Source: an uncultured Lachnospiraceae bacterium (GTDB lineage: Bacteria; Bacillota; Clostridia; Lachnospirales; Lachnospiraceae). From it: a stretch of DNA of 49,698 nt. The position numbers were made by a program, and so were the translations under genes. Every line of letters begins with the position of its first letter. Positions within the stretch are counted from its first letter, which is position 1. The stretch is taken from positions 1 through 49,698 of the forward strand of contig CAOKPU010000016.1 in assembly GCA_948470755.1 (NCBI GenBank), written 5' to 3'. The notes beneath the pieces were generated by a model that made no database searches, was not told where the DNA came from, and saw nothing but the letters and a program-made list of their open reading frames with translations. This document shows positions 7,727 through 47,269 of the stretch, in pieces.

Positions 7727-8764
7727 TCAAACCGCTTCAATCACCACCCCGTGGGCAATCCCCGGCACCGTCTGCCCTTCGTTGAAGCTGGTCTTGCTCA
7801 GTAAAGCGCCCGTAGGAACGAAAAGCACGCGCTTCCATACCCCTTCTTCAATCTTCTTTAGGATATACGCAGAGAGCGTTACCGCGCTGCACCCGCAGCC
7901 GCTCCCTCCTGCATGGGTGTCCTGCTCCTTTGCGTCATAAATCTCAATCCCACAGTCCATATGCCGTCCCGAAATATCCACATCCTTCTCATTCAGCAAA
8001 TCGATCAATGCATGCTGGCCCACACTCCCCAGATCGCCGGTAATGATCTTGTCATAATCCGAAGGCGTCCTTCCGAAATCCTTCAGATGCTGATAAATCA
8101 GATCGCTGGCGGCAGGCGCCATACACGCCCCCATATTCATGGAATCTTTCAGCCCATAATCCATAATCTTACCGGTAGTCAGGCCTGTGATCTTCCCCCG
8201 GGACTTCTTCCCCTGCGTGCCGCTTAAGACAAAAGCCCCGCTTCCCGTCACTGTCCAGGAAGCCGACAGCGGCCTTTGGTTCCCATATCCTAAAGGGAAA
8301 CGGAACTCTTTTTCCGCACTGGCAAAATGGCTGGAAGTCACGCACACGACATGTTCCCCATAGCCCGCATTGACCGCCATCGCCCCCATACTCAACGATA
8401 GCCCGCAAGTAGAACAGGCCCCGTAAAGCCCTATGAGGGGAATCTCATAACCGGCCAGCCCAAAACTGCTGGCAATGGACTGCCCCAGCAGATCCCCGGC
8501 AAAAAGATACCGGACATCTTCTTTTTTCAGCCCGGCCTTTCCCAAAGCCAGATATACCGCATCTTTTTGCAGACTGCTTTCCGCCTCTTCCCAGGAAGCG
8601 CAGCCGAACATATCATCCTGCCCTATCATATCAAAAAGCTCCGCCAAAGGGCCCTGCCCCTCCTTTGTTCCCACCACGCTTGCGCTTTCCCTGATAAAAA
8701 CAGGGTTTTTTAATTCTATGCTCTGCTTTCCCAGCATACATGTTTCCCTTTTTTCCTGACTCAT
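7727..8764 (-). CDS. spoVAD: Stage V sporulation protein AD (SpoVAD)
   Basis: The dipicolinic-acid-binding subunit of the SpoVA uptake system, with a thiolase-like fold. The 345-residue protein has the family length. GACSTCGLSLSMGAMAVNAG carries the thiolase-type cysteine, and FGNQRPLSASWTVTGSGAF, THAGGSGCGCSAVT and the C-terminal PTGALLS are characteristic of SpoVAD. The start at 8764 has AAGGAG 11 nt upstream. Neighbours on both sides are unrelated to sporulation: SGNH/MBOAT genes upstream and a small gene downstream. In the usual arrangement spoVAC and spoVAE would be adjacent. Confidence 0.96.
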   Translation of the reverse strand: MSQEKRETCMLGKQSIELKNPVFIRESASVVGTKEGQGPLAELFDMIGQDDMFGCASWEEAESSLQKDAVYLALGKAGLKKEDVRYLFAGDLLGQSIASSFGLAGYEIPLIGLYGACSTCGLSLSMGAMAVNAGYGEHVVCVTSSHFASAEKEFRFPLGYGNQRPLSASWTVTGSGAFVLSGTQGKKSRGKITGLTTGKIMDYGLKDSMNMGACMAPAASDLIYQHLKDFGRTPSDYDKIITGDLGSVGQHALIDLLNEKDVDISGRHMDCGIEIYDAKEQDTHAGGSGCGCSAVTLSAYILKKIEEGVWKRVLFVPTGALLSKTSFNEGQTVPGIAHGVVIEAV

Positions 8765-11724: not shown

Positions 11725-12081
11725 TTGACAAGCATTCATGTTAAGATCAAAAACTTAAGGGAAGAAAAACAGTTCAAACAACGCCAGGTCGCCGAATACC
11801 TGGGCATCTCCCAGCAGGCGTATTCCTATTATGAACTGGATAAACGGGAGATCCCCTCCAGGCATGTGGTAAACCTGGCAAAACTGTACCATGTCAGCGC
11901 CGATTACCTTCTTGGCATAGAACCGGAACGGGCCGGCTCTTTTGACCTGAACGCAACATTTGTGCAAGGCGTCACGTTAAAAGACGTAATGATCAGCTTA
12001 AAAAGGCTTAATAAAAGCAATAAAAAGGAAATCTTGAAGTTTTTGTCCTACTTAAGCAGCACACAGCCAGCCGCAAAATAA
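11725..12081 (+). CDS. XRE-family HTH regulator, twin 1
   Basis: A 118-residue protein with an N-terminal Cro/C1-type helix-turn-helix (about 5-62: IKNLREEKQFKQRQVAEYLG, then the recognition helix ISQQAYSYYELDKR) and a C-terminal basic helical tail (about 80-112). It begins with TTG at 11725 preceded by AGGGGGAG; no ATG exists in the frame before the HTH. The following gene encodes a very similar protein of the same length with the same TTG start, so the two arose by tandem duplication. They are divergent from the MBOAT/SGNH operon and convergent with the HD-HSP90 gene, either of which they might regulate. Confidence 0.9.
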   Translation: MTSIHVKIKNLREEKQFKQRQVAEYLGISQQAYSYYELDKREIPSRHVVNLAKLYHVSADYLLGIEPERAGSFDLNATFVQGVTLKDVMISLKRLNKSNKKEILKFLSYLSSTQPAAK

Positions 12082-12239: not shown

Positions 12240-12605
12240 TTGACAAAAGTCCATGTTAAAATAAAGAATTTAAGAGATGAAAACCACTTAAAACAGCGGC
12301 AGGTCGCAGACTATCTCGGCATCTCCCAACAGGCGTATTCCTACTATGAGCTGGATAAACGGGAACTCCCGTCCAGACATGTGGTGAGGCTGGCTAAGCT
12401 TTATAATGTGAGTACCGACTATATCCTGGGCGTAGAACCCGACCGGGCAGGCTCCTATGACCTCAACGCCACTTTCCTACAGGGAGTCAAGCTCAAAGAC
12501 GTCCTTATCAGTCTAAGAAAGCTCAACAAAAACAATAAAAAAGAAATGATGAAATATTTATCTTATTTGAACAGCACCCAATCCAATCATCCTGAAAAAA
12601 GCTAA
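12240..12605 (+). CDS. XRE-family HTH regulator, twin 2
   Basis: A 121-residue paralogue of the preceding regulator. The HTH (about 5-62) is nearly identical through ISQQAYSYYELDKRE and PSRHVV, and the tail ends KEMMKYLSYLNSTQ compared with KEILKFLSYLSSTQ in twin 1. It also starts with TTG, after TAGGGAGGGA. The stop codon lies inside the stem of the bidirectional terminator at 12601-12659. Both copies appear intact, so differential function or heterodimerisation is possible; the target is not known from sequence. Confidence 0.9.
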   Translation: MTKVHVKIKNLRDENHLKQRQVADYLGISQQAYSYYELDKRELPSRHVVRLAKLYNVSTDYILGVEPDRAGSYDLNATFLQGVKLKDVLISLRKLNKNNKKEMMKYLSYLNSTQSNHPEKS

Positions 12606-12659
12606 GGCATCGGCATGGAAAAGCCGAATGGCATGGAAAAGCCGCCGCCTTAGCTTTTT
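12601..12659. terminator. bidirectional intrinsic terminator
   Basis: GCTAAGGC (12601-12608) pairs with GCCTTAGC (12647-12654), flanked by A6 on the left and T5 on the right, so it can terminate both the HTH gene (plus) and the HD-HSP90 gene (minus). The loop contains two copies of GGCATGGAAAAGCCG, which can form small internal hairpins. Confidence 0.8.
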
Positions 12660-12665
12660 GATTTC

Positions 12666-15600
12666 TTATTCTTCTTTTTCCCTATAGACCCAGAAGTCTT
12701 CCATGGTAAGCCGGGGGAAAGCGGCCACATCTATGCCGTGACGCTCCGGCAAAGCGGTCAATTGATCCCGGATCTTGTTGCATTCCTCCGCTATGCTTTC
12801 ACCCGTATAGGCGCAAAGGCAATCCACCATCCACTGAAACTGCCTTTGATAATATTTCTGCAACAGGACGGCATTCTCCAGAAGCCAGAGGGCAAACGGA
12901 TGATCCGCCGTAATCCCTCTCCGCAAGGAAGGACTCTTGCTGCAAAGATAACGGCGGCTCTCTTTGCCGGCCGCTTTGCAAAACATCATAGGCGGAAAAA
13001 GATCCAAGGCATCTTCTCTCTCCCCGTCTTCTTTTTCATAAAAAAGGATTTTCTGCCCTTCCTCATAATTGATCGTCATCCGAAAACAATCCTGAAAGTA
13101 AGCCATCCAATATCTATATATCATACCTTCTTTATCATAATAACCCGGTTGTATGCAGAATCTATCCGCAAGATCCGTTTGCAGAGGCTGCCGCAGCCCC
13201 TCCCTGTATTCCGCCGGAAAATGCTCCTGGTTCTTCCGCATCCATTCCCCTATCCCGGAACTCCGCACCCTCCTCCATTCTTTCAATGTTCTTTCTTCCC
13301 ATCCGTCAAAACGCACCACATAGCTCCGCAACCATTTTGACATCTGATATTTATAAAAAACGCTATTCATTGTTACCAGAACCTCCAATGGCAGTCCGGA
13401 GATCTTAGAACGGCTCATTTTCACCATCGGTTTCCAACGGCCTCCCAAAAAAAATATCGCACCCGAACCCGTATCGTCTTCCATAAAATGAATCCCTTCT
13501 TCGCCATCAGCCACAACGCCCTGATATGCACATATAAATTCCCGATACAAATCATTTCCGGATAACGCCGCAATGTCAGGGCATCCGCATTCCCTGACGG
13601 AAAAGCTCATTTCTCTCCCCACTCCTTGCCGCATATCGCAGTAAGCTGTCCAAGCCTCATACAGATTCATCCCCCCATAAAATAGCTGTCGCACCTCCTT
13701 TGCCAATTCTGCCGATTCAGGGCAAACCGGGTATTTATCGAATTCCTCTTCCAGGGCTGCTATTTTTTCCGTATCATAATGTTCTTTCATCCATTTCCAT
13801 CGCATCCTATCAGGAGAATCCCCCCCTTTGTTCCGAATTCGGAATGCAAGCAGAAGATCCTTTTCCCCCATTCTAACCCTTCCCTCTAATTCATAAACCT
13901 GATCTTTTACTTCCCACTGCGGCTCCTTATCAAAATGCACATGATATTTCACCAATACGCCGGACAAATCCGGCACGATCCGGTCTTCCTCCGTATCCAG
14001 CGGAACCACAGTTACCGCGATCTCCGGATACTGCCCGCAGACCGCCGGGAAATTGCGGTCGAACTGCCCCTTCATCTCCCGGGTCAGTTCATACCGCTTT
14101 TCTCCCGCCTCTTCATGCGCAGCCCGCATCACTTCCTTCTCCGTCCGTCCGATCCGTACCTTATTATAATATACCGGCACTCTGGCGCCGCACAAATATT
14201 TTTCCGCCGTTTCCCTCAGATTCAGTGCACCCAGCTTCCCCGGATCCAGCCGGACTGCAATAGAGGTTCCCGGCCCGGTGCGGTAGCCGTTCCTGTCAAA
14301 GTCAGACAGCCCGCTCCCATCCGGAAAACCCGGCGCCGGCCACGGCTCCTCCGACGCGTGGCGCTTCGACTGGTTCCTTAAAATATAATAACCGCTTAAC
14401 CCGGTAATCTGCAAACGCAAACCATAACGCGTCGTCCGGCAGGAATTCAGGCCCCCTTCTTCCCTCCGGTTCTTTTCCGGATCAAAGTAACGGGTGGAAA
14501 CCTCCGCATAATCCCCGCAAAGGAACACCGATAAAAAACCGATCCCGAAGCGGCTGATCCCATAATACTTTCCCTCCTGCCCATGATCCCGCAGATCCCT
14601 GTCCAGTTCTTTAGAATTATAGTAGGAATTGCCTACCTTTAAGAAGTAACGCTGCATCATCCCCAGAGTCATGCCTGTCCCCTGATCGTCGATCCGGAAC
14701 CAGACATTCCCTTCTTTATCGTTCCATTCCCATAAATCAACGCGGGCGTTTTCCGGATCGAAATCCGGCACCATTTCTCCCCTCAACAAAGTCGCATCAA
14801 TGGCGTTTTGCAACAATTCCCTTATAAAAACATCCCGGTTGTCGTATAAGTTTTCTCCCGTCAAAAGGCTCAAAATCTGCGTCTGATCCATAGTCAGGCA
14901 AAAATCGCCGCTCATATAGCCATCCGACTCGATTTCCTCCCTAAGGACCGCCCTTGGGAAGGCAAAGCGCCGCTGCCAGTCCGCATGGCAATGTTCCTGC
15001 AGCTTCCTGCAGTTGCCAAACTCCTCGTCCACCCAGTCCAGAAAATCCCTGACGGCATGTTCCACGCCCGGATCCGTACAGCGCGCCTTATAAGGCAGAT
15101 CGTCCGCAGAAGGGGAATCCGGATAACGGAACCCTGCCGAAGCCTGATGCTTGTCCCACTCCTTGCGGCTCTTCTCATTACAGGCCGTATAACCGTACAG
15201 CACCTTAGGCGCACGGGCGTCATCAAAATCCAGCAAATCTCCCAAACGGAGCAAAAGCGCGCAAAACAAAGGATCCGCATCATTGGCGGGCAAATATCCC
15301 AGTTCCCTGCTGTGCGCCAGTTCCGTCGGGCTTTCCCCATGCGCCTGGCAGACAGCCAGCACGCAACCCATTGGCACGGCTTCCAGAGGACGTCTGCGGA
15401 TCAACTCCTTCCATCCCTCATTTTGCAACGCCTCTGCAATACGGAAAGGATGCAACGTGCGCAAATACCATTGGCGGGTATCCTCCGTCCAGCTTTCCGC
15501 CGGACAGCCCATCAGTTCCGGGCAATATTCCCTCGTAAAATCCCTGCAGGCCTCCCTGTCATTCTGCCACTGCCGCCTTTCCTCTTCCGTATATACCATC

Positions 15601-15884
15601 CCCAAATCATGCAGACAGGCTGACAGGATCAAAAGTTCCAGCTCCCCGGCTGTCAGCCGTCCGATCTGATCCCCCAGCAGCCCGCCCATAGCGTCCAGCA
15701 CACGCAATATATGCGTTTCATCATGCAGCGTATAATTCCGGAACGTCAGCCGGACATCCTTCAGATAATGGGCCGCCGCCTGATAAACTTCCTCCACCCA
15801 ACCGCTCCGCCTGTCGTCGGATCCCTCTTTTTCCTTATAAGCCTGCCAAATCTTTGTCTCTTCCAATTTTTTGAAATGTATCAT
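12666..15884 (-). CDS. HD domain - HSP90-like (GHKL) ATPase fusion, candidate conflict/defence protein
   Basis: A 1072-residue cytoplasmic protein. The N-terminal 300 residues form an HD-type domain: H54 in LHDETH, H92-D93 in CLHDLGM and D215 in RLGDLLDFDD are the likely metal/phosphate ligands. Residues about 325-640 form an HSP90-type GHKL ATP-binding domain: N box RELLQNAIDA (355-364), G1 box DDQGTGM (399-405), G2 box SRFGIGFLS (444-452), followed by the transducer-like region. The remaining 430 residues have no recognised domain. HD and HSP90-like modules are known together in large prokaryotic conflict proteins, but this exact fusion and partner were not recognised as a named system. It follows the MPE-STAND gene by 93 bp on the same strand, with GCAGGGGG before the ATG, so the two likely form an operon. 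Confidence 0.8.
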   Translation of the reverse strand: MIHFKKLEETKIWQAYKEKEGSDDRRSGWVEEVYQAAAHYLKDVRLTFRNYTLHDETHILRVLDAMGGLLGDQIGRLTAGELELLILSACLHDLGMVYTEEERRQWQNDREACRDFTREYCPELMGCPAESWTEDTRQWYLRTLHPFRIAEALQNEGWKELIRRRPLEAVPMGCVLAVCQAHGESPTELAHSRELGYLPANDADPLFCALLLRLGDLLDFDDARAPKVLYGYTACNEKSRKEWDKHQASAGFRYPDSPSADDLPYKARCTDPGVEHAVRDFLDWVDEEFGNCRKLQEHCHADWQRRFAFPRAVLREEIESDGYMSGDFCLTMDQTQILSLLTGENLYDNRDVFIRELLQNAIDATLLRGEMVPDFDPENARVDLWEWNDKEGNVWFRIDDQGTGMTLGMMQRYFLKVGNSYYNSKELDRDLRDHGQEGKYYGISRFGIGFLSVFLCGDYAEVSTRYFDPEKNRREEGGLNSCRTTRYGLRLQITGLSGYYILRNQSKRHASEEPWPAPGFPDGSGLSDFDRNGYRTGPGTSIAVRLDPGKLGALNLRETAEKYLCGARVPVYYNKVRIGRTEKEVMRAAHEEAGEKRYELTREMKGQFDRNFPAVCGQYPEIAVTVVPLDTEEDRIVPDLSGVLVKYHVHFDKEPQWEVKDQVYELEGRVRMGEKDLLLAFRIRNKGGDSPDRMRWKWMKEHYDTEKIAALEEEFDKYPVCPESAELAKEVRQLFYGGMNLYEAWTAYCDMRQGVGREMSFSVRECGCPDIAALSGNDLYREFICAYQGVVADGEEGIHFMEDDTGSGAIFFLGGRWKPMVKMSRSKISGLPLEVLVTMNSVFYKYQMSKWLRSYVVRFDGWEERTLKEWRRVRSSGIGEWMRKNQEHFPAEYREGLRQPLQTDLADRFCIQPGYYDKEGMIYRYWMAYFQDCFRMTINYEEGQKILFYEKEDGEREDALDLFPPMMFCKAAGKESRRYLCSKSPSLRRGITADHPFALWLLENAVLLQKYYQRQFQWMVDCLCAYTGESIAEECNKIRDQLTALPERHGIDVAAFPRLTMEDFWVYREKEE

Positions 15885-15977
15885 AAAAATCCCCCTGCCT
15901 TCCCTTTTTCCTCCTCGAATGTCATGCCCATGCGCAAACGGATCGTTTCCATCCGCTTTTTACGGCGGCAAAAACTT

Positions 15978-18794
15978 TTATTCCATGATTCCGCTTAACA
16001 TAAACAATCTTTTGAATTCCAGAGCCGGTATTTTGGGTATCCCTTCCCAAAATTCCAATTCACGATACGTCCATGCGGTCATAATTCCTTTTTTCAGATC
16101 CTGTTCCGGATTCCGTTCTTCTTCCTTCCACCTTTTCAGCTTTAACTTTTCCTGTTCGGACATATCGGGCTGCTTATGTTTTGCTTCATTCCAGTCAATT
16201 CTTTCCGTTAGGCAAAAGGCCGATGCCATTGCCGCAAAATAGATTTCATTCCCATATAAACGGTATAATTCCAAAAATGTAAATGTAGTGGAATACAAAT
16301 TGATATGTGCATTCTTTATATCAATCGGCTTTTTTTCCACTTCATCCGACAAAGCAATCGCCGACAGACAGATGCTTGCCGCCTTATTCCCTATATTGGC
16401 CTCTATTAAGGCCCATTCGCAGAAAAAGGAACGGTTTTCCACCACATAACGGACATCCCGGAACAGTTGCCGCGCTTGTTCCGGCTGTTTAACTTTTCGA
16501 TACAGCTTTGATAAGTGAACGATAATATGTTCATCAAATGGATCCAGCTTCAGGATTTGCCTGTCTATCCGGACTGCCAGCCTATTATTCTCATTTACGA
16601 AATTATCCGACATAAACCGCCATCTTTTGAGGGCTTCGATATATTCTCCCTTTTGATTCGCCTCTATCGCCGCCTGTGTCATTTCGATATAGACTTCATC
16701 AAAATCATAATGAAATTCCTCATCCAATATTTTTCTGGCGGATTTGGCGATCGATCCATGCCGGGTATAGATCATATCCCCGCTTACCGTACTGGCGGCT
16801 TCATCCCCCAAAGGACCCAGGATATTTTTCTTAACATCCTTTTCCTCGCATTGGTAAATCTGAGCCATAACCGGCTTGGATAAGAAATAGAGCTTTTTTG
16901 AATGCATCGCCACAATATACGCAAAAGCATTCAATAAAGTTTCACGATAAAGCGGTATTTCTTCCAGCCGCCGAAGCATCTCCCGTACATGATTGTGTAA
17001 GTCGTCCCCATAACGGGTTGCCAGCATAGCGCCCAGCAACGCCCCTTCATCCGGCTCATTCACCTCTTCATTCCGGGAAGACTGAATCAGACGTTTTTTT
17101 GCTTCCTCCGCCGTCAGGCCCTTCAGCTTTCCAAGCCCCTCTTCCCCTAATTCTTTCCATGCATCTATAAACTTTCCTGCATCGTCTTCATCAATGCCTT
17201 TCAGGCGCGGCCTGCTGAAGCTGGATATACTGCGCCACTGCAGTTTATCCGCATCGCTGTTGATCCAATCGGTATCTCTGGCGCATAACAAAAAATGTAC
17301 GTGCTGATATTTCCTCTTTTTTAACCTCTTTATTAACCCAAACAGTTTATGCGCCACAGGAAAGCAGTTGTCCACTCCAATAATCCAATTTCCCTCTTTT
17401 GTATAGTTCAACAACTGCTCCTCATAAAGCTGCGTTTCTTTTTCAGGCTGCCGCAAAACCAATGCCCGCCACCCGTTTTCCCTGCAAAGCTCCCGGATCG
17501 TCTGCAGCAGGATTGTCGTCTTCCCTTCCCCTCCCGCCGCAGATAACAGAATACACTTCGTCTGCTCTTCCTCATTGCATTTGATGAACTCGTCCTGCAA
17601 ATCGGATACTATCTTCCTAAGCGGGATATAAGATGAAAAAATATCATTATAAGAAGGTTCCTTTCCATCAAAATATTTTAAAATGTCCTTCTTTTCCGGC
17701 TCTTTCCTGCTTCTGATAAATTTATCATCTATCAGATGCCAGCCGGCAGGGACTTTCGCTTCCTCTTTCCCTTTTTCTTTATGTTTCATCCCTATAGGCG
17801 CCACCGTACAGGGAAATACCCATATATCCCTGCCTTCCTCCCGGAAATCTTCCGGAAGGTTTCCGGAGGCATCCAACACAAATCTGTCATTATCGGACGA
17901 CCAACGCCTTGGCGCCAGACTGACGGTATCTTTGGCAAAGTCCAAAAACCCCCAATACAAAGAGTTATAATGGATCTCATCATCCTCCCTTTCCTGAAAG
18001 CCCGCACCGCATTGAAGGGATAAAAAGCCCGCATCGGTAGCCGCCATATAGCCCCCGCTGTTTTTGTGCATATGCCCATGTAAATAAATCGCTTTATGCC
18101 TTGCCAGCAATACCGCTGCCTTTTTCCTTTCTTCCTCCTGAAACCAGTCCGGCGGATGATGGCCAAGGATCAGTTTATAGTCGCATCCCTCCAGCCTTTC
18201 CAGTGCTTCCTGTAAAATCCATTTTCCGGGCGAAAGCTGCTCCTTATCTTTATCGGATTTTGACAGCCATGCCGTATTCACCCCTGCAATACCTATCTTG
18301 TACTTTCCCTTTTCATATATGGTATCAAAACAACCTTCTTTCCGGAAAATCCCTTCTACGGGAAAACAAAGCTCATCCATCGTAAAACCATACCGGAACC
18401 CGGCAAACCGTTCAAAAACCCCCTGCCGCATTTCCCTCCCTTTTTCATCCACATCAAAAAAACCGGCCTTTTTCCGGAGGATATCGTATAAGGAAAGCTC
18501 TATCACCTCGCATTTTTCCCGGTTTACGTCATGATTGCCGGGAACGATATATATTTTAGGCAGGACATCATAAATATCAATGACAGGAAGCAGGAATTCA
18601 TTTACAAATGTCTCATATTCTTCCTTTTTGCCTTTGTTGGCTATATCTCCGGTAATAAAAATAAGATCCGGCACAACCCCCTTCTCTTTTTGCTCTTTCA
18701 TATGTACATGTATATTTTTAAATAATTTTATCTGCCCATAATGATCCTTTCCCGTATGAAAATCCGATAAATGCAGCCATTTTATACCTTCCAT
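15978..18794 (-). CDS. Metallophosphoesterase - STAND P-loop NTPase - TPR protein, candidate defence protein
   Basis: A 938-residue multidomain protein. Residues 1-300 are a calcineurin-type phosphoesterase with the complete metal-ligand set: D11-H13 (LSDFH), D50 (ITGD), N87-H88 (PGNHD), H212 (LGHHPP) and H239/H241-type GHMH. Residues about 385-560 form a STAND/AAA-like NTPase with Walker A GGEGKTT (421-427), an acidic Walker B strand IIGVDNCF (471-478) and a LLCARDTDW sensor. A winged-helix-like stretch and TPR-like repeats (about 700-850, e.g. GEYIEALKRWR and PEQARQLFRDV) follow. This effector-NTPase-sensor order is typical of Avs/NLR-like immune proteins, in which ligand binding by the repeats activates the effector. 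The start at 18794 has AAGGAG upstream. It is the first gene of a pair with the HD-HSP90 gene. Confidence 0.82.
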   Translation of the reverse strand: MEGIKWLHLSDFHTGKDHYGQIKLFKNIHVHMKEQKEKGVVPDLIFITGDIANKGKKEEYETFVNEFLLPVIDIYDVLPKIYIVPGNHDVNREKCEVIELSLYDILRKKAGFFDVDEKGREMRQGVFERFAGFRYGFTMDELCFPVEGIFRKEGCFDTIYEKGKYKIGIAGVNTAWLSKSDKDKEQLSPGKWILQEALERLEGCDYKLILGHHPPDWFQEEERKKAAVLLARHKAIYLHGHMHKNSGGYMAATDAGFLSLQCGAGFQEREDDEIHYNSLYWGFLDFAKDTVSLAPRRWSSDNDRFVLDASGNLPEDFREEGRDIWVFPCTVAPIGMKHKEKGKEEAKVPAGWHLIDDKFIRSRKEPEKKDILKYFDGKEPSYNDIFSSYIPLRKIVSDLQDEFIKCNEEEQTKCILLSAAGGEGKTTILLQTIRELCRENGWRALVLRQPEKETQLYEEQLLNYTKEGNWIIGVDNCFPVAHKLFGLIKRLKKRKYQHVHFLLCARDTDWINSDADKLQWRSISSFSRPRLKGIDEDDAGKFIDAWKELGEEGLGKLKGLTAEEAKKRLIQSSRNEEVNEPDEGALLGAMLATRYGDDLHNHVREMLRRLEEIPLYRETLLNAFAYIVAMHSKKLYFLSKPVMAQIYQCEEKDVKKNILGPLGDEAASTVSGDMIYTRHGSIAKSARKILDEEFHYDFDEVYIEMTQAAIEANQKGEYIEALKRWRFMSDNFVNENNRLAVRIDRQILKLDPFDEHIIVHLSKLYRKVKQPEQARQLFRDVRYVVENRSFFCEWALIEANIGNKAASICLSAIALSDEVEKKPIDIKNAHINLYSTTFTFLELYRLYGNEIYFAAMASAFCLTERIDWNEAKHKQPDMSEQEKLKLKRWKEEERNPEQDLKKGIMTAWTYRELEFWEGIPKIPALEFKRLFMLSGIME

Positions 18795-18977
18795 ATCCTA
18801 TGCTTCTCCTTTTGTATATTTCTCCCTATGCTTTAGCGCCACGTCAGCTCCTGCAAAGCCAACAACCCCGGTGCAGGGCATACGGGGTTGCCGGCCTTCG
18901 CGGCAGTCGCCAAATGCCTGCAAGCAGTCACTGGCTCATTGCCCGCGGGCATCAAATACCGTTCCCCGGCCGTATCT

Positions 18978-19745
18978 TTATTTCCGGCAAACGTTCAGGC
19001 CTCCGTCTATATTGATCGAGCTTCCTGTTATATACGAAGAAAGCGGTGAAAGTAATAATAAAACCATAGGAACGACTTCTTTGGCCTGCCCAAACCTTCC
19101 AAAAGGTATTCCCCTTCTTTTCGCTTCCTGCCCCTTCCATGCCTCAAAACTTAAGGATGATCCTGCTTTTTGATATTTATCGGACTGCCGCTCCGTGTCA
19201 ACGGCCCCCAAATTAACCGTATTGACACATATTTTAGGCGCGAGGCTGTTCGCCAGCATATAAGCAATTTGCTTTACCGCCGCCATTTCCATATCAGGAA
19301 TATTAGCCGTTATCCCATTCATAATCACAATCCTGGGATGATCGGATTTCAAAAGCTCATCGATTGCCGGCCTGACCGTATTCAAAATCCCGCAGACTTT
19401 GATTTCAAATTGATTGCGCCACTCCTCATTTTTTGTTTCCAAAACAGTACCCAGCGAGCCGCTTCCTGCACTTGCCACCACTCCGTCCAGTTTACCAAAA
19501 CGTGCAACTGTTTTCATAACTACTTGCTCCATTTGTCCGCTGTTTAAAATATCAGCCGTTACTGTCAACAGATTTTCCCGGGATTTGCCGGGTATGCCGT
19601 CATAAAGTTCCCGGAGATTCTTATCATTCCTCGCGCAAGCCGTCACTGCCGCCCCTTCTGTTAGCAGTTCCAGCACAATCTCCCTCCCAATCCCCTTACT
19701 GCCTCCGGTTACCAAAAAAACACTATTTTTTAGTCTAAGATCCAC
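18978..19745 (-). CDS. SDR-family protein lacking the canonical catalytic Tyr
   Basis: A 255-residue Rossmann-fold protein of the short-chain dehydrogenase/reductase superfamily. The nucleotide-binding TGGSKGIG (about 13-20) and the C-terminal ITGSSINIDGG are present. NNAG is replaced by SAGSG, and the active-site segment reads IMNGITANIPDMEMAAVKQ, where the YxxxK tyrosine is Met and the upstream Ser is absent. Oxidoreductase activity is therefore doubtful. The start is a GTG at 19745 with GGAGG 6 nt upstream; an upstream TTG (19775) is less likely. It has its own promoter (19807-19835) after the spoVAC terminator. A hairpin-containing gap of 183 bp separates it from the STAND gene, with CAACCCCG and CGGGGTTG arms near 18864-18891. 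Confidence 0.85.
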   Translation of the reverse strand: MDLRLKNSVFLVTGGSKGIGREIVLELLTEGAAVTACARNDKNLRELYDGIPGKSRENLLTVTADILNSGQMEQVVMKTVARFGKLDGVVASAGSGSLGTVLETKNEEWRNQFEIKVCGILNTVRPAIDELLKSDHPRIVIMNGITANIPDMEMAAVKQIAYMLANSLAPKICVNTVNLGAVDTERQSDKYQKAGSSLSFEAWKGQEAKRRGIPFGRFGQAKEVVPMVLLLLSPLSSYITGSSINIDGGLNVCRK

Positions 19746-19806
19746 GTTAACCCTCCATTCCTGCCCAACACACAAAAATTCCCAAAATACCTTCCCTTAC
19801 GGATAC

Positions 19807-19835
19807 AATATACCATTCTTTTCCCCCATGCACAA
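19807..19835 (-). promoter_or_regulatory. probable promoter of the SDR gene
   Basis: Minus-strand TTGTGC (19835-19830), a 17-bp spacer and TATATT (19812-19807) lie directly downstream of the spoVAC terminator. This separates the SDR transcription unit, and possibly the genes after it, from spoVAC. Confidence 0.5.
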
Positions 19836-19845
19836 GTTGCCATAC

Positions 19846-19881
19846 AAAAAGGCAGAGCCAACATCCGTCGCTCTGCCTTCC
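19846..19881 (-). terminator. intrinsic terminator after spoVAC
   Basis: On the minus strand GGCAGAGC pairs with GCTCTGCC and is followed by TTTTTGTATGG. It lies 22 bp past the spoVAC stop codon. Confidence 0.85.
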
Positions 19882-19902
19882 CTACCCGATCAACTGATTT
19901 TC

Positions 19903-20361
19903 CTACCAAACCCCAAAACACTTCCCGGCCCAGTAAATGAATCCCAACGCCCAGCTTGTAAATATCCCATAAAGTATGACCGGCCCGGCAATGGTGAAAA
20001 TCTTGCACCCAATCCCGAAGACCTGCCCCTCCTTTTTAAATTCAATCGCCGGCGCCGCCACCGAATTGGCAAAACCCGTGATCGGCACCAAAGCTCCCGC
20101 GCCGCCAAATTTTACGATTGACGGATATATATTAAAGCCGGTCAGCAAGATGCTCGCCAGAATAAGAATCAGCGAGCACCAGCTTCCCGCCGTCTCTTTG
20201 TCCAGCCCTGCCGCATCCGTGCAATAATTCAAGATAAGCTGGCCAATAACGCATATTACGCCCCCTACAAGGAAAGCCTTAACCATCTGCAGCCATAAAT
20301 TATGCGTCGGGGTCACTTCCTTCACATATTCCTGATATTCCTGCTTGATCTGTTCATCCAT
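19903..20361 (-). CDS. spoVAC: Stage V sporulation protein AC (SpoVAC)
   Basis: Membrane subunit of the SpoVA dipicolinate channel; in Bacillus SpoVAC behaves as a mechanosensitive channel. The 152-residue product has the family length, hydrophobic helices and the conserved core GGAGALVPITGFANSVAAPAIEFKKEG (around residues 85-111; quoted here as overlapping parts VPITGFANS and AIEFKKEG). The open frame runs up to 20457 and would add 32 residues resembling a signal sequence. The ATG at 20361 (MDEQIKQEYQEYV) gives the usual SpoVAC N terminus and has GGGG 5 nt upstream. A sigma-G-like promoter (20490-20518) lies upstream, and a palindrome ATTGAAAAT-GTTA-ATTTTCAAT (20437-20458) lies in the leader. 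A terminator follows. Confidence 0.95.
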   Translation of the reverse strand: MDEQIKQEYQEYVKEVTPTHNLWLQMVKAFLVGGVICVIGQLILNYCTDAAGLDKETAGSWCSLILILASILLTGFNIYPSIVKFGGAGALVPITGFANSVAAPAIEFKKEGQVFGIGCKIFTIAGPVILYGIFTSWALGFIYWAGKCFGVW

Positions 20362-20489
20362 ATTTTTCCCCATTTCTGCGCTGCTTGTTGCGCATAACGG
20401 GTTTGTGACAAGCAACGCGCAGACACAAATCCCGCGATTGAAAATGTTAATTTTCAATCTTTTCCCTCGCTTTATCCTTTACTTTCTTA

Positions 20490-44946: not shown

Positions 44947-45027
44947 ATTTTTAAATATCATTGAGGACTCTGTCCTTTTTAGTAAGAGAACAAAAAATAT
45001 TGTTCCGTAAAAAAATTACGGATGATG

Positions 45028-45056
45028 TTGTTGCTTGGGAATAAAAATGGTATACT
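45028..45056 (+). promoter_or_regulatory. promoter of the AAA/RloB operon
   Basis: TTGTTG (45028-45033), 17-bp spacer, TATACT (45051-45056) with a preceding TGG. It lies 34 bp before the AAA start codon and just after a TCCGTAA/TTACGGA hairpin (45004-45022). Confidence 0.6.
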
Positions 45057-45090
45057 AAGTAAAAAGAAAGATTTAAGGAGAGAGTCTATT

Positions 45091-46245
45091 ATGCTGAAAC
45101 AATTTGAGGTAAGTAATTATAGGAATTTCAAAGATAAAGTAAAAGTTGATTTTAGTAAAGTGGGAGGATATCAATTTAATTCAGAGTGCATTACAAATAG
45201 TAAGATAAGTAAAATGCTTGTCTATGGAAGGAATGCGACCGGAAAAACAAATCTAGGGAAAGCATTACTTGATATTTCAAATAATATGGCAAGGATTCGT
45301 TTTTTTTCAAGTCAGGCAGTTGCATATTTAAATGCAGACTCAAATGAAAAGATGGCGTTATTCAAGTATGTATTTCAGTTTGATGATAATGAAATTGTAT
45401 ATATGTATCATAAAATATCAGAATATCAGTTATTTGACGAAGAATTGTTAGTCGATGGCAATAGGGTATTTTATTTCAATTTTGAAACAAAGGAGAATGA
45501 TTTTGAGGGGCTTGAAGAGCTGGAAGCTGAAACGGTTATCACAGATCGCTTTTTGCAGGCAATGAATTCAAATAAAGGGGACGATGATGAAGCTCCAACA
45601 TTACCATTTCTTCGATGGGTAATAAATAATACAGCTTTAAAAGAAAATTCAATACTTTTAAAATTAGATGATTTTATAAATCGAATGGCAATGGTCACTG
45701 TAGGAAGTGGAAGTGGAATATACAGATCTCGAAAATTTTATGATACATTTTTTGATGTACTGGATGAAAAGGATAATTTAAAAGATTTTGAAGATTTCTT
45801 AAACATAATGGGAATAGAATGTAGTCTGGTAATGAAACATTTGCCTGATGGACAAAAAGAATTATATTTTCAACATGAAAAGCTGGTTCCTTTTATGGAA
45901 ACAGCATCAAGCGGAACTCTTTCCTTGTTGAATTTATATCGGTGTCTTTTTATGGGAAAAAACTCTTCGTTACTTTACATGGATGAATTTGATGCGTTTT
46001 ATCATTATGAGATGTCAGAAAATGTAATTCGTTTTTTGAAAGCCAAATATCCTGAATGTCAGATTATTATGACTACGCATAATACAAATTTAATGACTAA
46101 TAGATTGATGAGGCCGGACTCTTTGTTTATTTTATCAAGAAGAGGTACACTTACTGCATTATGTGATGCAACAGAGAGGGAATTGCGTGAGGGACATAAT
46201 TTAGAAAAGATGTATATAAGTGGGGAATTTGATAAATATGAATAA
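45091..46245 (+). CDS. AAA (ABC/OLD-type) ATPase, first gene of a RloB-type pair
   Basis: A 384-residue ATPase of the AAA_15/AAA_21 type, without membrane segments. Walker A is VYGRNATGKTN (about 44-54), the signature-like ASSGTLSLLN lies near 267-276, Walker B is LLYMDEFD (294-301) and the switch histidine is in TTHNTN (about 327-332). In such proteins the large insertion between Walker A and the signature (about 80-260) is thought to sense the trigger. It overlaps the next gene by 8 bp. The start at 45091 (MLKQFEVSNYRNFKD) is canonical and has AAGGAGAGA upstream. Similar ATPase-RloB pairs are found in restriction loci and abortive-infection (AbiL-like) systems. Confidence 0.88.
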   Translation: MLKQFEVSNYRNFKDKVKVDFSKVGGYQFNSECITNSKISKMLVYGRNATGKTNLGKALLDISNNMARIRFFSSQAVAYLNADSNEKMALFKYVFQFDDNEIVYMYHKISEYQLFDEELLVDGNRVFYFNFETKENDFEGLEELEAETVITDRFLQAMNSNKGDDDEAPTLPFLRWVINNTALKENSILLKLDDFINRMAMVTVGSGSGIYRSRKFYDTFFDVLDEKDNLKDFEDFLNIMGIECSLVMKHLPDGQKELYFQHEKLVPFMETASSGTLSLLNLYRCLFMGKNSSLLYMDEFDAFYHYEMSENVIRFLKAKYPECQIIMTTHNTNLMTNRLMRPDSLFILSRRGTLTALCDATERELREGHNLEKMYISGEFDKYE

Positions 46246-47269
46246 TTATGATTGGTTAAAGTCAAGAAGGCGACGACGAAATCTGTTTATTGTAGAGGGA
46301 AACCATGAAAAAAATGAACTTATGGGCTTACTCTTGAAAATCTATCCAGAGGTAGACATAAAGTTAGAAGATATTATCACATATACCACAAATATATATC
46401 AGCTTTATAAATTGATAGCGGATAAGTATGGTGATGAGTGGTTTGATATAGATGTTGATTTACCATTCATCGTTGGTGAGAAGTTAAGGGTGGAAGAGGC
46501 TTTGCATAAAGTTGATTTTATGAATATTCTTCTTATTTTTGATTATGAAAGACACGATCCTCTTTTTTCAGAAGAAAAAATTAATCATCTCCAGCAATAT
46601 TTTTGTGATTCAACCGATGTTGGAAAGCTTTATATTAATTATCCGATGGTTGAATCATATCAACACTTATTTTCAATTCCAGATTTAGGCTATGCAGAAA
46701 GAAGTATTTTGGTGTCGTTGCAGCCAGGTGATAAATATAAAAATTTGGTAAAAGATACGTTCATTGCACATTTGATTGATTTGCCAAGGAAGATGGAAGA
46801 AATACTTTCAAAAAGATTTATGATACAAGATAAGGAAAAATGTGCAGAATATGTTGAGAAGATTTTATTCATCCACTCTGATGAAAATGATCTTGCAATA
46901 CAGGTAAGAGAAATACTCTGTGGTGCTCTTGATGAACGGGCTTTATTAACAGCACAGTTTCAGATGAAGAATTTAATAGAGAAAAATCGGTATGCCAGTT
47001 TAGGAAAAACATATTTTGAACATATGAGAGATATTTTCAACGAAATTATTGTTCATAATATACGGAAGGGTAAGATGATTCAAAGCGGTGAATATAATTT
47101 CCACCAATATGATTTGGAAAAATGTTATAAGAGCCTTTCTTTGTTAGATATCTTGGATAGACAAAATATTAGAAGCAGAGATCTTGAGGAGGGGATGATT
47201 TGGGTGATAAATACAAGTGTGCTTTTTATTCCAGATTATAATTTCAATCTGATTGAAAGTGGAGAATAA
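46238..47269 (+). CDS. RloB-like TOPRIM-type protein, candidate nuclease effector
   Basis: A 343-residue protein. The motifs fit RloB/TOPRIM-like effectors: FIVEGNHEK (VEG at 19-21 and E24), LLIFDYERHDP with an acidic D101/E103 pair, and INYPMVESYQH (N133, P135, M136, E138, S139), which resembles the NPMxES motif of RloB. The basic stretch KSRRRRRN near the N terminus may contact nucleic acid. The start ATG overlaps the upstream stop codon (ATGAATAA), so translation is coupled with the ATPase. The predicted role is a nuclease unleashed by the ATPase on infection; this is inference. The family name is given from the motifs, not a search. Confidence 0.78.
   Translation: MNNYDWLKSRRRRRNLFIVEGNHEKNELMGLLLKIYPEVDIKLEDIITYTTNIYQLYKLIADKYGDEWFDIDVDLPFIVGEKLRVEEALHKVDFMNILLIFDYERHDPLFSEEKINHLQQYFCDSTDVGKLYINYPMVESYQHLFSIPDLGYAERSILVSLQPGDKYKNLVKDTFIAHLIDLPRKMEEILSKRFMIQDKEKCAEYVEKILFIHSDENDLAIQVREILCGALDERALLTAQFQMKNLIEKNRYASLGKTYFEHMRDIFNEIIVHNIRKGKMIQSGEYNFHQYDLEKCYKSLSLLDILDRQNIRSRDLEEGMIWVINTSVLFIPDYNFNLIESGE

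Follow-up and report, generated by a model that had tools for sequence, protein, structure and literature searches.

The closest described relatives of the proteins considered here are single-protein defence systems. DS-8 (NF053861; PADLOC PDC-S60) is one antiphage protein made of a metallophosphatase and a NACHT domain, and the available part of the paper describing it (DefensePredictor, PMC13092281) reports that both the metallophosphatase and the NTPase residues are needed to block phage. VcSduA, according to the excerpt available of PMC12137116, is a Shedu protein with an N-terminal GHKL ATPase; ATPase and nuclease are both needed, and control of the nuclease is attributed there to the GHKL ATPase and a middle domain resembling a clamp.

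The DNA analysed (the window) is a stretch of 49,698 nucleotides from an uncultured Lachnospiraceae bacterium. An initial annotation had described in it two very large co-directional genes 93 bp apart, read as one undescribed defence module; the coordinates and the spacing were confirmed, both genes lying on the minus strand. The locus is probably made up of two independent, horizontally moving single-gene proteins of defence type which are neighbours in one cargo slot, and the more interesting part of it is the HD-CE-HSP90 family. The features of the region are:

7727-8764: spoVAD
12594..12668, minus strand: strong stem followed by a U run 3' of the HD-CE-HSP90 gene, likely a terminator
12606..19902, no strand: cargo segment of the variable slot (HD-CE-HSP90, STAND and SDR genes), from the genus-mate comparison
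12666..15884, minus strand: HD-CE-HSP90 gene, 1072 amino acids (ORF list; Pfam and NCBIfam)
15978..18794, minus strand: metallophosphatase-nSTAND5 (STAND) gene, 938 amino acids (ORF list; Pfam)
18978..19775, minus strand: SDR (short-chain dehydrogenase) gene, in the same slot as both large genes
19903-20457: spoVAC

A variable slot in the spoVA region

Both large genes are placed between spoVAC and a run of MBOAT, SGNH and spoVAD genes, so that their location inside a sporulation cluster had been recognised rightly. The stem at 12594..12668 (-32.1 kcal/mol, z -5.0, with 0 of 200 shuffles equally good) is likely a terminator common to the HD-CE-HSP90 gene and a convergent HTH gene. The 93 bp separating the two large genes showed no terminator, and their co-transcription in the source strain is therefore possible.

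The spoVA stretches of 15 genus-mates were compared, in 10 of which both MBOAT and spoVAC were visible (the others being L081, L083, L087, L088 and L091). Between these flanks a MATE-like transporter ORF was found in four (L090, L093, L094, L095), HTH, GNAT-like and Fic-like genes in two (L082, L086) and other ORFs in three (L084, L085, L089), while L092 held no ORF of at least 70 amino acids; the MATE, GNAT and Fic labels, unlike HTH, are readings of the protein starts. Both large genes were missing from the slot in all 10 two-flank genus-mates, and none of the 15 stretches gave a DNA-level match overlapping positions 12,606-19,902 of the window. Since the contents vary among the 10 and the cargo DNA is absent from all 15, the MBOAT-spoVAC interval is a small cargo slot, a result which bears out the proposed insertion as cargo.

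Two tandem, similar HTH genes adjoin the cargo (11725-12081 and 12240-12605, plus strand), with RstR-like matches below cut-off. The second has a DNA counterpart in L081, L082 and L086; as L082 and L086 carry a single HTH copy in the same slot (86% protein identity), this gene probably belongs to the slot and not to the cargo. Elsewhere in the window, an AT-rich (GC 0.31-0.32) two-gene unit at 45022-47269 (plus strand) matches the PADLOC candidate system PDC-M12, with genes for an AAA ATPase (PDC-M12A, E 1e-95) and a 349-amino-acid partner (PDC-M12B, E 4e-34) that share 26 bases. The gene immediately before it codes for a CspB-protease prodomain and a subtilase domain. It is a further unit of defence type, the second in the window to stand next to a spore gene.

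Domains and motifs of the two proteins

The domains of both proteins lie as follows:

15018..15743, minus strand: HD-CE phosphohydrolase domain, residues 48-289 (PF24391, E 5.5e-49)
13335..14894, minus strand: HSP90-type N-domain and middle (transducer) domain, residues about 331-850
18063..18776, minus strand: calcineurin-like phosphoesterase effector domain of DS-8/PDC-S60 type, residues 7-244 (PF00149, E 3.6e-16)
17247..17678, minus strand: nSTAND_NTPase5 core with P-loop, residues 373-516 (PF25199, E 5e-32)
16452..16562, minus strand: weak TPR-like helical repeat, residues 745-781 (E 0.11)

In the HD-CE-HSP90 protein the GHKL/HSP90 ATPase, at about residues 331-471, was matched by Pfam HATPase_c (E 8e-4) and by two NCBIfam HtpG/HSP90 models (E 7e-13 over residues 331-471, and E 6e-16), all three under their curated cut-offs. 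It was confirmed by a PDB profile search, which gave HSP90 N-domain matches, and by a structure model (mean pLDDT 82), in which the protein has the predicted fold of an HSP90 N-domain plus middle domain. The HD residues H54, H92-D93, H145, H182 and D216 and the GHKL residues E356, N360, D400, G402, G404, G447 and G449 are invariant in 18/18 aligned proteins, window protein included. The HD and HSP90-type GHKL domains with intact motifs, as seen by the initial annotation, were thereby confirmed, its residue D215 being corrected to D216. We take the ligand and catalytic roles of the HD, GHKL, phosphoesterase and P-loop motif residues to be those of their families. Residues 850-1072 gave no Pfam match.

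Over most of this protein no named defence system was found in PADLOC 2.0.0 or NCBIfam 20.0, the partial matches being to its GHKL part (PADLOC REase_II, E 2e-5; NCBIfam BbrUII, E 6e-5; HtpG models). At E 1e-4 its relatives L043, L058 and L109 had no PADLOC family, and neither the HD-CE-HSP90 nor the STAND protein had a PHROGs family. PF25199 and PF24391 were matched over nearly their whole models; these Pfam names denote domains, not systems. In the PMC literature searched, no HD-CE-HSP90 system was named among the matches listed, and of the papers matching HD-CE or nSTAND5 alone none was, by title, on bacterial defence. The description of the pair as undescribed thus stands for the HD-CE-HSP90 protein and not for the STAND protein, whose effector is of the DS-8 type.

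HD-CE domains were seen in open frames of 294 to 1257 amino acids. At one locus (L039, 7370-10714) a reverse transcriptase is fused to HD-CE (Pfam RVT_1, HD-CE) and adjoins an HD-CE-HSP90 gene; at two more (L188, 9358-12813; L189, 9358-12603) HD-CE lies near the end of similar-sized proteins, which are probably also reverse transcriptase fusions. In our reading, a different HD-CE group repeatedly follows two ORFs, one small and receiver-like and one larger (L174, L175, L177, L185), possibly as a conserved three-gene operon.

The STAND protein has an N-terminal effector and a P-loop STAND NTPase, as in effector-sensor proteins. Residues D11, H13, D50, N87, H88, H212, H241 and H243 of the phosphoesterase and K425 of the P-loop are invariant in 3/3 STAND proteins, and the same residues are kept in the copy on viral contig L195; the metal ligands and P-loop are thus intact, as had been noted. 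The C-terminal repeats are weak: TPR_19 matched the window protein at E 0.11 and TPR_7 its 52% identical homologue (L161) at E 0.0015, and no TPR was detected in the 32% identical homologue (L163), while the structure model, built from a two-sequence alignment, was too poor to judge repeats (mean pLDDT 45.5). The assignment of phosphoesterase, P-loop NTPase and TPR repeats therefore holds for the first two (PF00149, PF25199), the TPR being hinted at.

Co-occurrence and mobility

A pattern scan of a collection of 84,980 species, which reaches mainly close relatives, gave 19 HD-CE-HSP90 loci. In five of these (L042, L048, L050, L056, L059) the sequence stops within 360 bases past the gene, and in one (L052) it starts about 300 bases before the gene; L056 holds the HD part only and L060 two split frames. 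L051, L058 and L049 are apparently the loci in G242, G022 and G252, and the figure of 19 counts the pattern scan alone. A STAND homologue was present in none of the fetched flanks at E 1e-3 (0/19, six of the 19 ending within 360 bases on one side), and a full-length one in none of the 19 genomes, three of which (G971, G976, G985) gave phosphoesterase-part matches of at most 271 residues. In the reverse direction, G947 (52% identical), G871 (32%) and viral contig L195 (32%) each yielded a full-length STAND homologue. Neither genome had an HD-CE-HSP90 gene, near the STAND homologue or elsewhere (0/2), the matches there being to the ATPase part and in HtpG-sized frames. With three full-length homologues, two of them in searchable genomes, the STAND side of this test rests on few cases.

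At the level of the order, HD-CE in any layout was detected in 26 and nSTAND5 in 10 of 344 genomes, the source genome being counted in each and both searches taken as one and the same sample. Both were present in two genomes, the source and G833 (on different contigs), where about 0.8 would be expected by chance, and neither occurred in the 14 control genomes. No STAND-like ORF was seen in the flanks of 20 further HD-CE loci of the order, and no HD-CE-HSP90-like ORF at nine nSTAND5 loci. Although 238 of 250 genomes matched the HD-CE-HSP90 protein, most of the matches listed were to the ATPase part alone, in frames of roughly 600-820 amino acids, and were set aside because common GHKL proteins, HtpG or MutL for instance, have frames of this length. 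Within the genus (16 genomes, source included) the distribution of both genes is that of accessory genes: HD-CE-HSP90 is found in 5/16 and full-length STAND in 1/16, the source itself, with a phosphoesterase-part match of 301 residues in genus-mate G253. As the relatives found so far occur separately, the locus looks more like two mobile defence genes side by side than like one system.

The HD-CE-HSP90 copies of the genus-mates are 53% (G259), 59% (G263, residues 1-888), 65% and 43% (G252, residues 6-676 and 786-1066) and 34% (G254, residues 7-580) identical to the window protein, and SpoVAD in G259, G263, G252 and G254 is 93, 90, 92 and 92% identical; next to spoVAC or MBOAT the gene was found in none of these four. 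The nearest neighbours of the window protein in the tree are copies from MAGs of other genera, a placement that is modestly supported (81/94). One HD-CE-HSP90-like gene (L109, 47%) follows baseplate, tail-fibre and endolysin genes and has a GC content of 0.33 against 0.52 in its flanks, and the STAND-like gene of L195 lies 3.6 kb from phage tail genes (P2-like in our reading), with GC 0.43 against 0.53. Together with the STAND-like gene of L163 (0.38 against 0.56 around it), these are the three of 11 relatives which differ from their flanks by more than 0.08; since the other eight lie within 0.08, foreign GC is not general. Both the HD-CE-HSP90 and the STAND genes probably move horizontally. 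Some inheritance is vertical, as judged by a context shared by four MAGs (L043, L044, L045, L055) and another common to L049 and L111 of genus-mates; ORFs near L111 were read by us as serine-recombinase-like.

The viral-contig scan gave no match with the single STAND protein, and with a three-sequence STAND alignment it returned L195 and a short phosphoesterase match (L196). In GenBank phage records short GHKL matches to one window protein were present in two records, with none for the other, and plasmid records gave part-length matches only (22 for the STAND protein, five for HD-CE-HSP90 and two for the L036 protein considered below). Split frames in the HD-CE-HSP90-like copies L113, L114, L116 and L060 are either broken genes or sequence errors. 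In a single case, a distant HD-CE-HSP90 gene (L035) has as neighbours a restriction enzyme of EcoO109I type and an ORF resembling C5-methyltransferases. Two loci (L048, 7854-9593; L054, 7265-9019) share an ORF of about 580 amino acids (82% identical between them), after which the HD-CE-HSP90 relative follows directly or two small ORFs later; the start of this ORF is Csp-protease-like in our reading, and spore-germination protease loci may be insertion spots.

Proposed action and comparison with known systems

That the two genes form one system, with the HSP90-type protein serving the STAND sensor as its own chaperone or as an additional effector, is improbable, although they are adjacent, on one strand and separated by 93 bp with no terminator found. 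Chaperones do serve NLR-type sensing: the available part of PMC12169576 describes DnaJ for bNACHT25, and HSP90 for NLRP3 and plant R proteins. A fusion of metallophosphatase and HSP90 ATPase exists in one genome (L036), and its layout was not refound in 334 genomes of the order (E 1e-20) or in the viral-contig scan. Against a common system stand the missing STAND partner at 0/19 HD-CE-HSP90 loci and in 0/19 genomes, the missing HD-CE-HSP90 gene in both STAND genomes, the absence of a partner at the 20 further HD-CE and nine nSTAND5 loci of the order, and the GC contents of 0.52 (HD-CE-HSP90) and 0.44 (STAND). With no recurrent adjacency or co-occurrence in either direction in the genomes searched, the two-gene module put forward by the initial annotation was rejected, this absence being one of the outcomes that the annotation had itself named as refuting its reading. 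A housekeeping or sporulation role in the spoVA cluster, in keeping with the position of both genes between spoVAC and spoVAD, is hardly credible: it was rejected because the slot holds neither gene in any of the 10 genus-mates (of 15) whose flanks are both seen, and because of the patchy genus distribution, the other four HD-CE-HSP90 copies being elsewhere.

HD and calcineurin-type enzymes also act in signalling, and the phage and mobile contexts (L109, L195, near L111) would suit genes that mobile elements carry for whatever reason. It nevertheless seems unlikely that the two proteins serve such elements in a role other than against phages, for example in the control of nucleotide signals, stress response or element maintenance: both the combination of effector and NTPase and the relatedness of the phosphoesterase to DS-8/PDC-S60 speak for defence. 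The initial view is supported in that two large effector-NTPase proteins of defence type stand as cargo in the variable slot.

We favour two independent single-gene proteins, which would act in phage defence. On the model of DS-8, the C-terminal helical part of the STAND protein would bind a cue, presumably from phage, upon which the nSTAND5 NTPase would switch and assemble, activating the N-terminal metallophosphatase to cut a nucleotide or nucleic acid, so that phage growth stops. In the HD-CE-HSP90 protein, on the model of VcSduA, the C-terminal part would meet the cue, the HSP90-type N and middle domains would close on ATP, and closure of this clamp would bring together and activate the N-terminal HD phosphohydrolases. 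The trigger, the order of events and the substrates are drawn by analogy for both proteins. From the negative co-occurrence result it follows that an experiment treating both genes solely as one system would be ill-chosen.

The STAND protein resembles DS-8 in being a single protein with an N-terminal metallophosphatase, a central NTPase and a long C-terminus. NF053861 matched residues 8-301 (model positions 1-284 of 994, E 3e-31) with 108 bits, below the NCBI whole-protein cut-off of 790, and PDC-S60 matched residues 4-276 (E 7e-34). In the STAND protein and its three homologues the match to the DS-8 model is confined to the phosphoesterase (within positions 1-290), unlike L119 and L120 of the same bacterial family, which are matched over positions 1-980 and 1-977 (199 and 190 bits, also below 790); PDC-S60 gives the same split between the STAND protein, L161 and L163 on one side and L119 on the other. 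Unlike that of DS-8, the NTPase is nSTAND_NTPase5 (Pfam, 111 bits), with no NACHT match up to E 0.1; in L119 and L121 NACHT was detected below cut-off, and L120 gave no NACHT match. Full DS-8 membership was rejected on the effector-only match. Because the match ends after the effector, unlike in L119 and L120, the STAND protein is regarded as a DS-8-type effector on another STAND core. It suggests that different NTPase cores can acquire the metallophosphatase effector of DS-8, and may help to find the substrate of this effector.

The HD-CE-HSP90 protein shares with HSP90 chaperones a GHKL N-domain with conserved Glu, Asn, Asp and glycine boxes and a middle domain (14-20% identity to the HSP90 rows of the fold comparison, the VIA list of which barely tests residues 1-330 and 850-1072). 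It differs from HSP90, HtpG and TRAP1 in its preceding HD domain, unmatched C-terminus and patchy distribution. The effector ahead of the clamp is HD-CE in most of the family and a DS-9/DS-8-like metallophosphatase in one case, L036 (7864-11388, 1174 amino acids), whose HSP90 ATPase is 41% identical to that of the window protein. This fusion is a singleton here, the order genomes giving HSP90-part matches only (4/334); it suggests, from a single case, that the HSP90 clamp can have one effector replaced by another at its N-terminal side. Tentatively, and with more doubt than conviction, the HSP90 N and middle domains might be seen as an NTP-driven switch of single-gene immune proteins, taking the place of STAND or NACHT, with interchangeable phosphohydrolase effectors in front; if so, HSP90-type clamps would be immune switches themselves and not only helpers of NLRs.

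By analogy of architecture, VcSduA, as far as the excerpt of PMC12137116 describes it, is the nearest validated analogue of the HD-CE-HSP90 protein. Both are products of a single gene and combine a GHKL ATPase, a clamp-like middle domain and an effector enzyme; in VcSduA the ATPase comes first and a PD-(D/E)xK nuclease last, whereas in HD-CE-HSP90 the HD phosphohydrolase precedes an HSP90-like ATPase. Should the defence reading hold, HD-CE-HSP90 would be an unnamed single-gene immune family in which an HSP90-like clamp drives a phosphohydrolase, and the GHKL-effector principle of VcSduA would extend to a chaperone-type ATPase.
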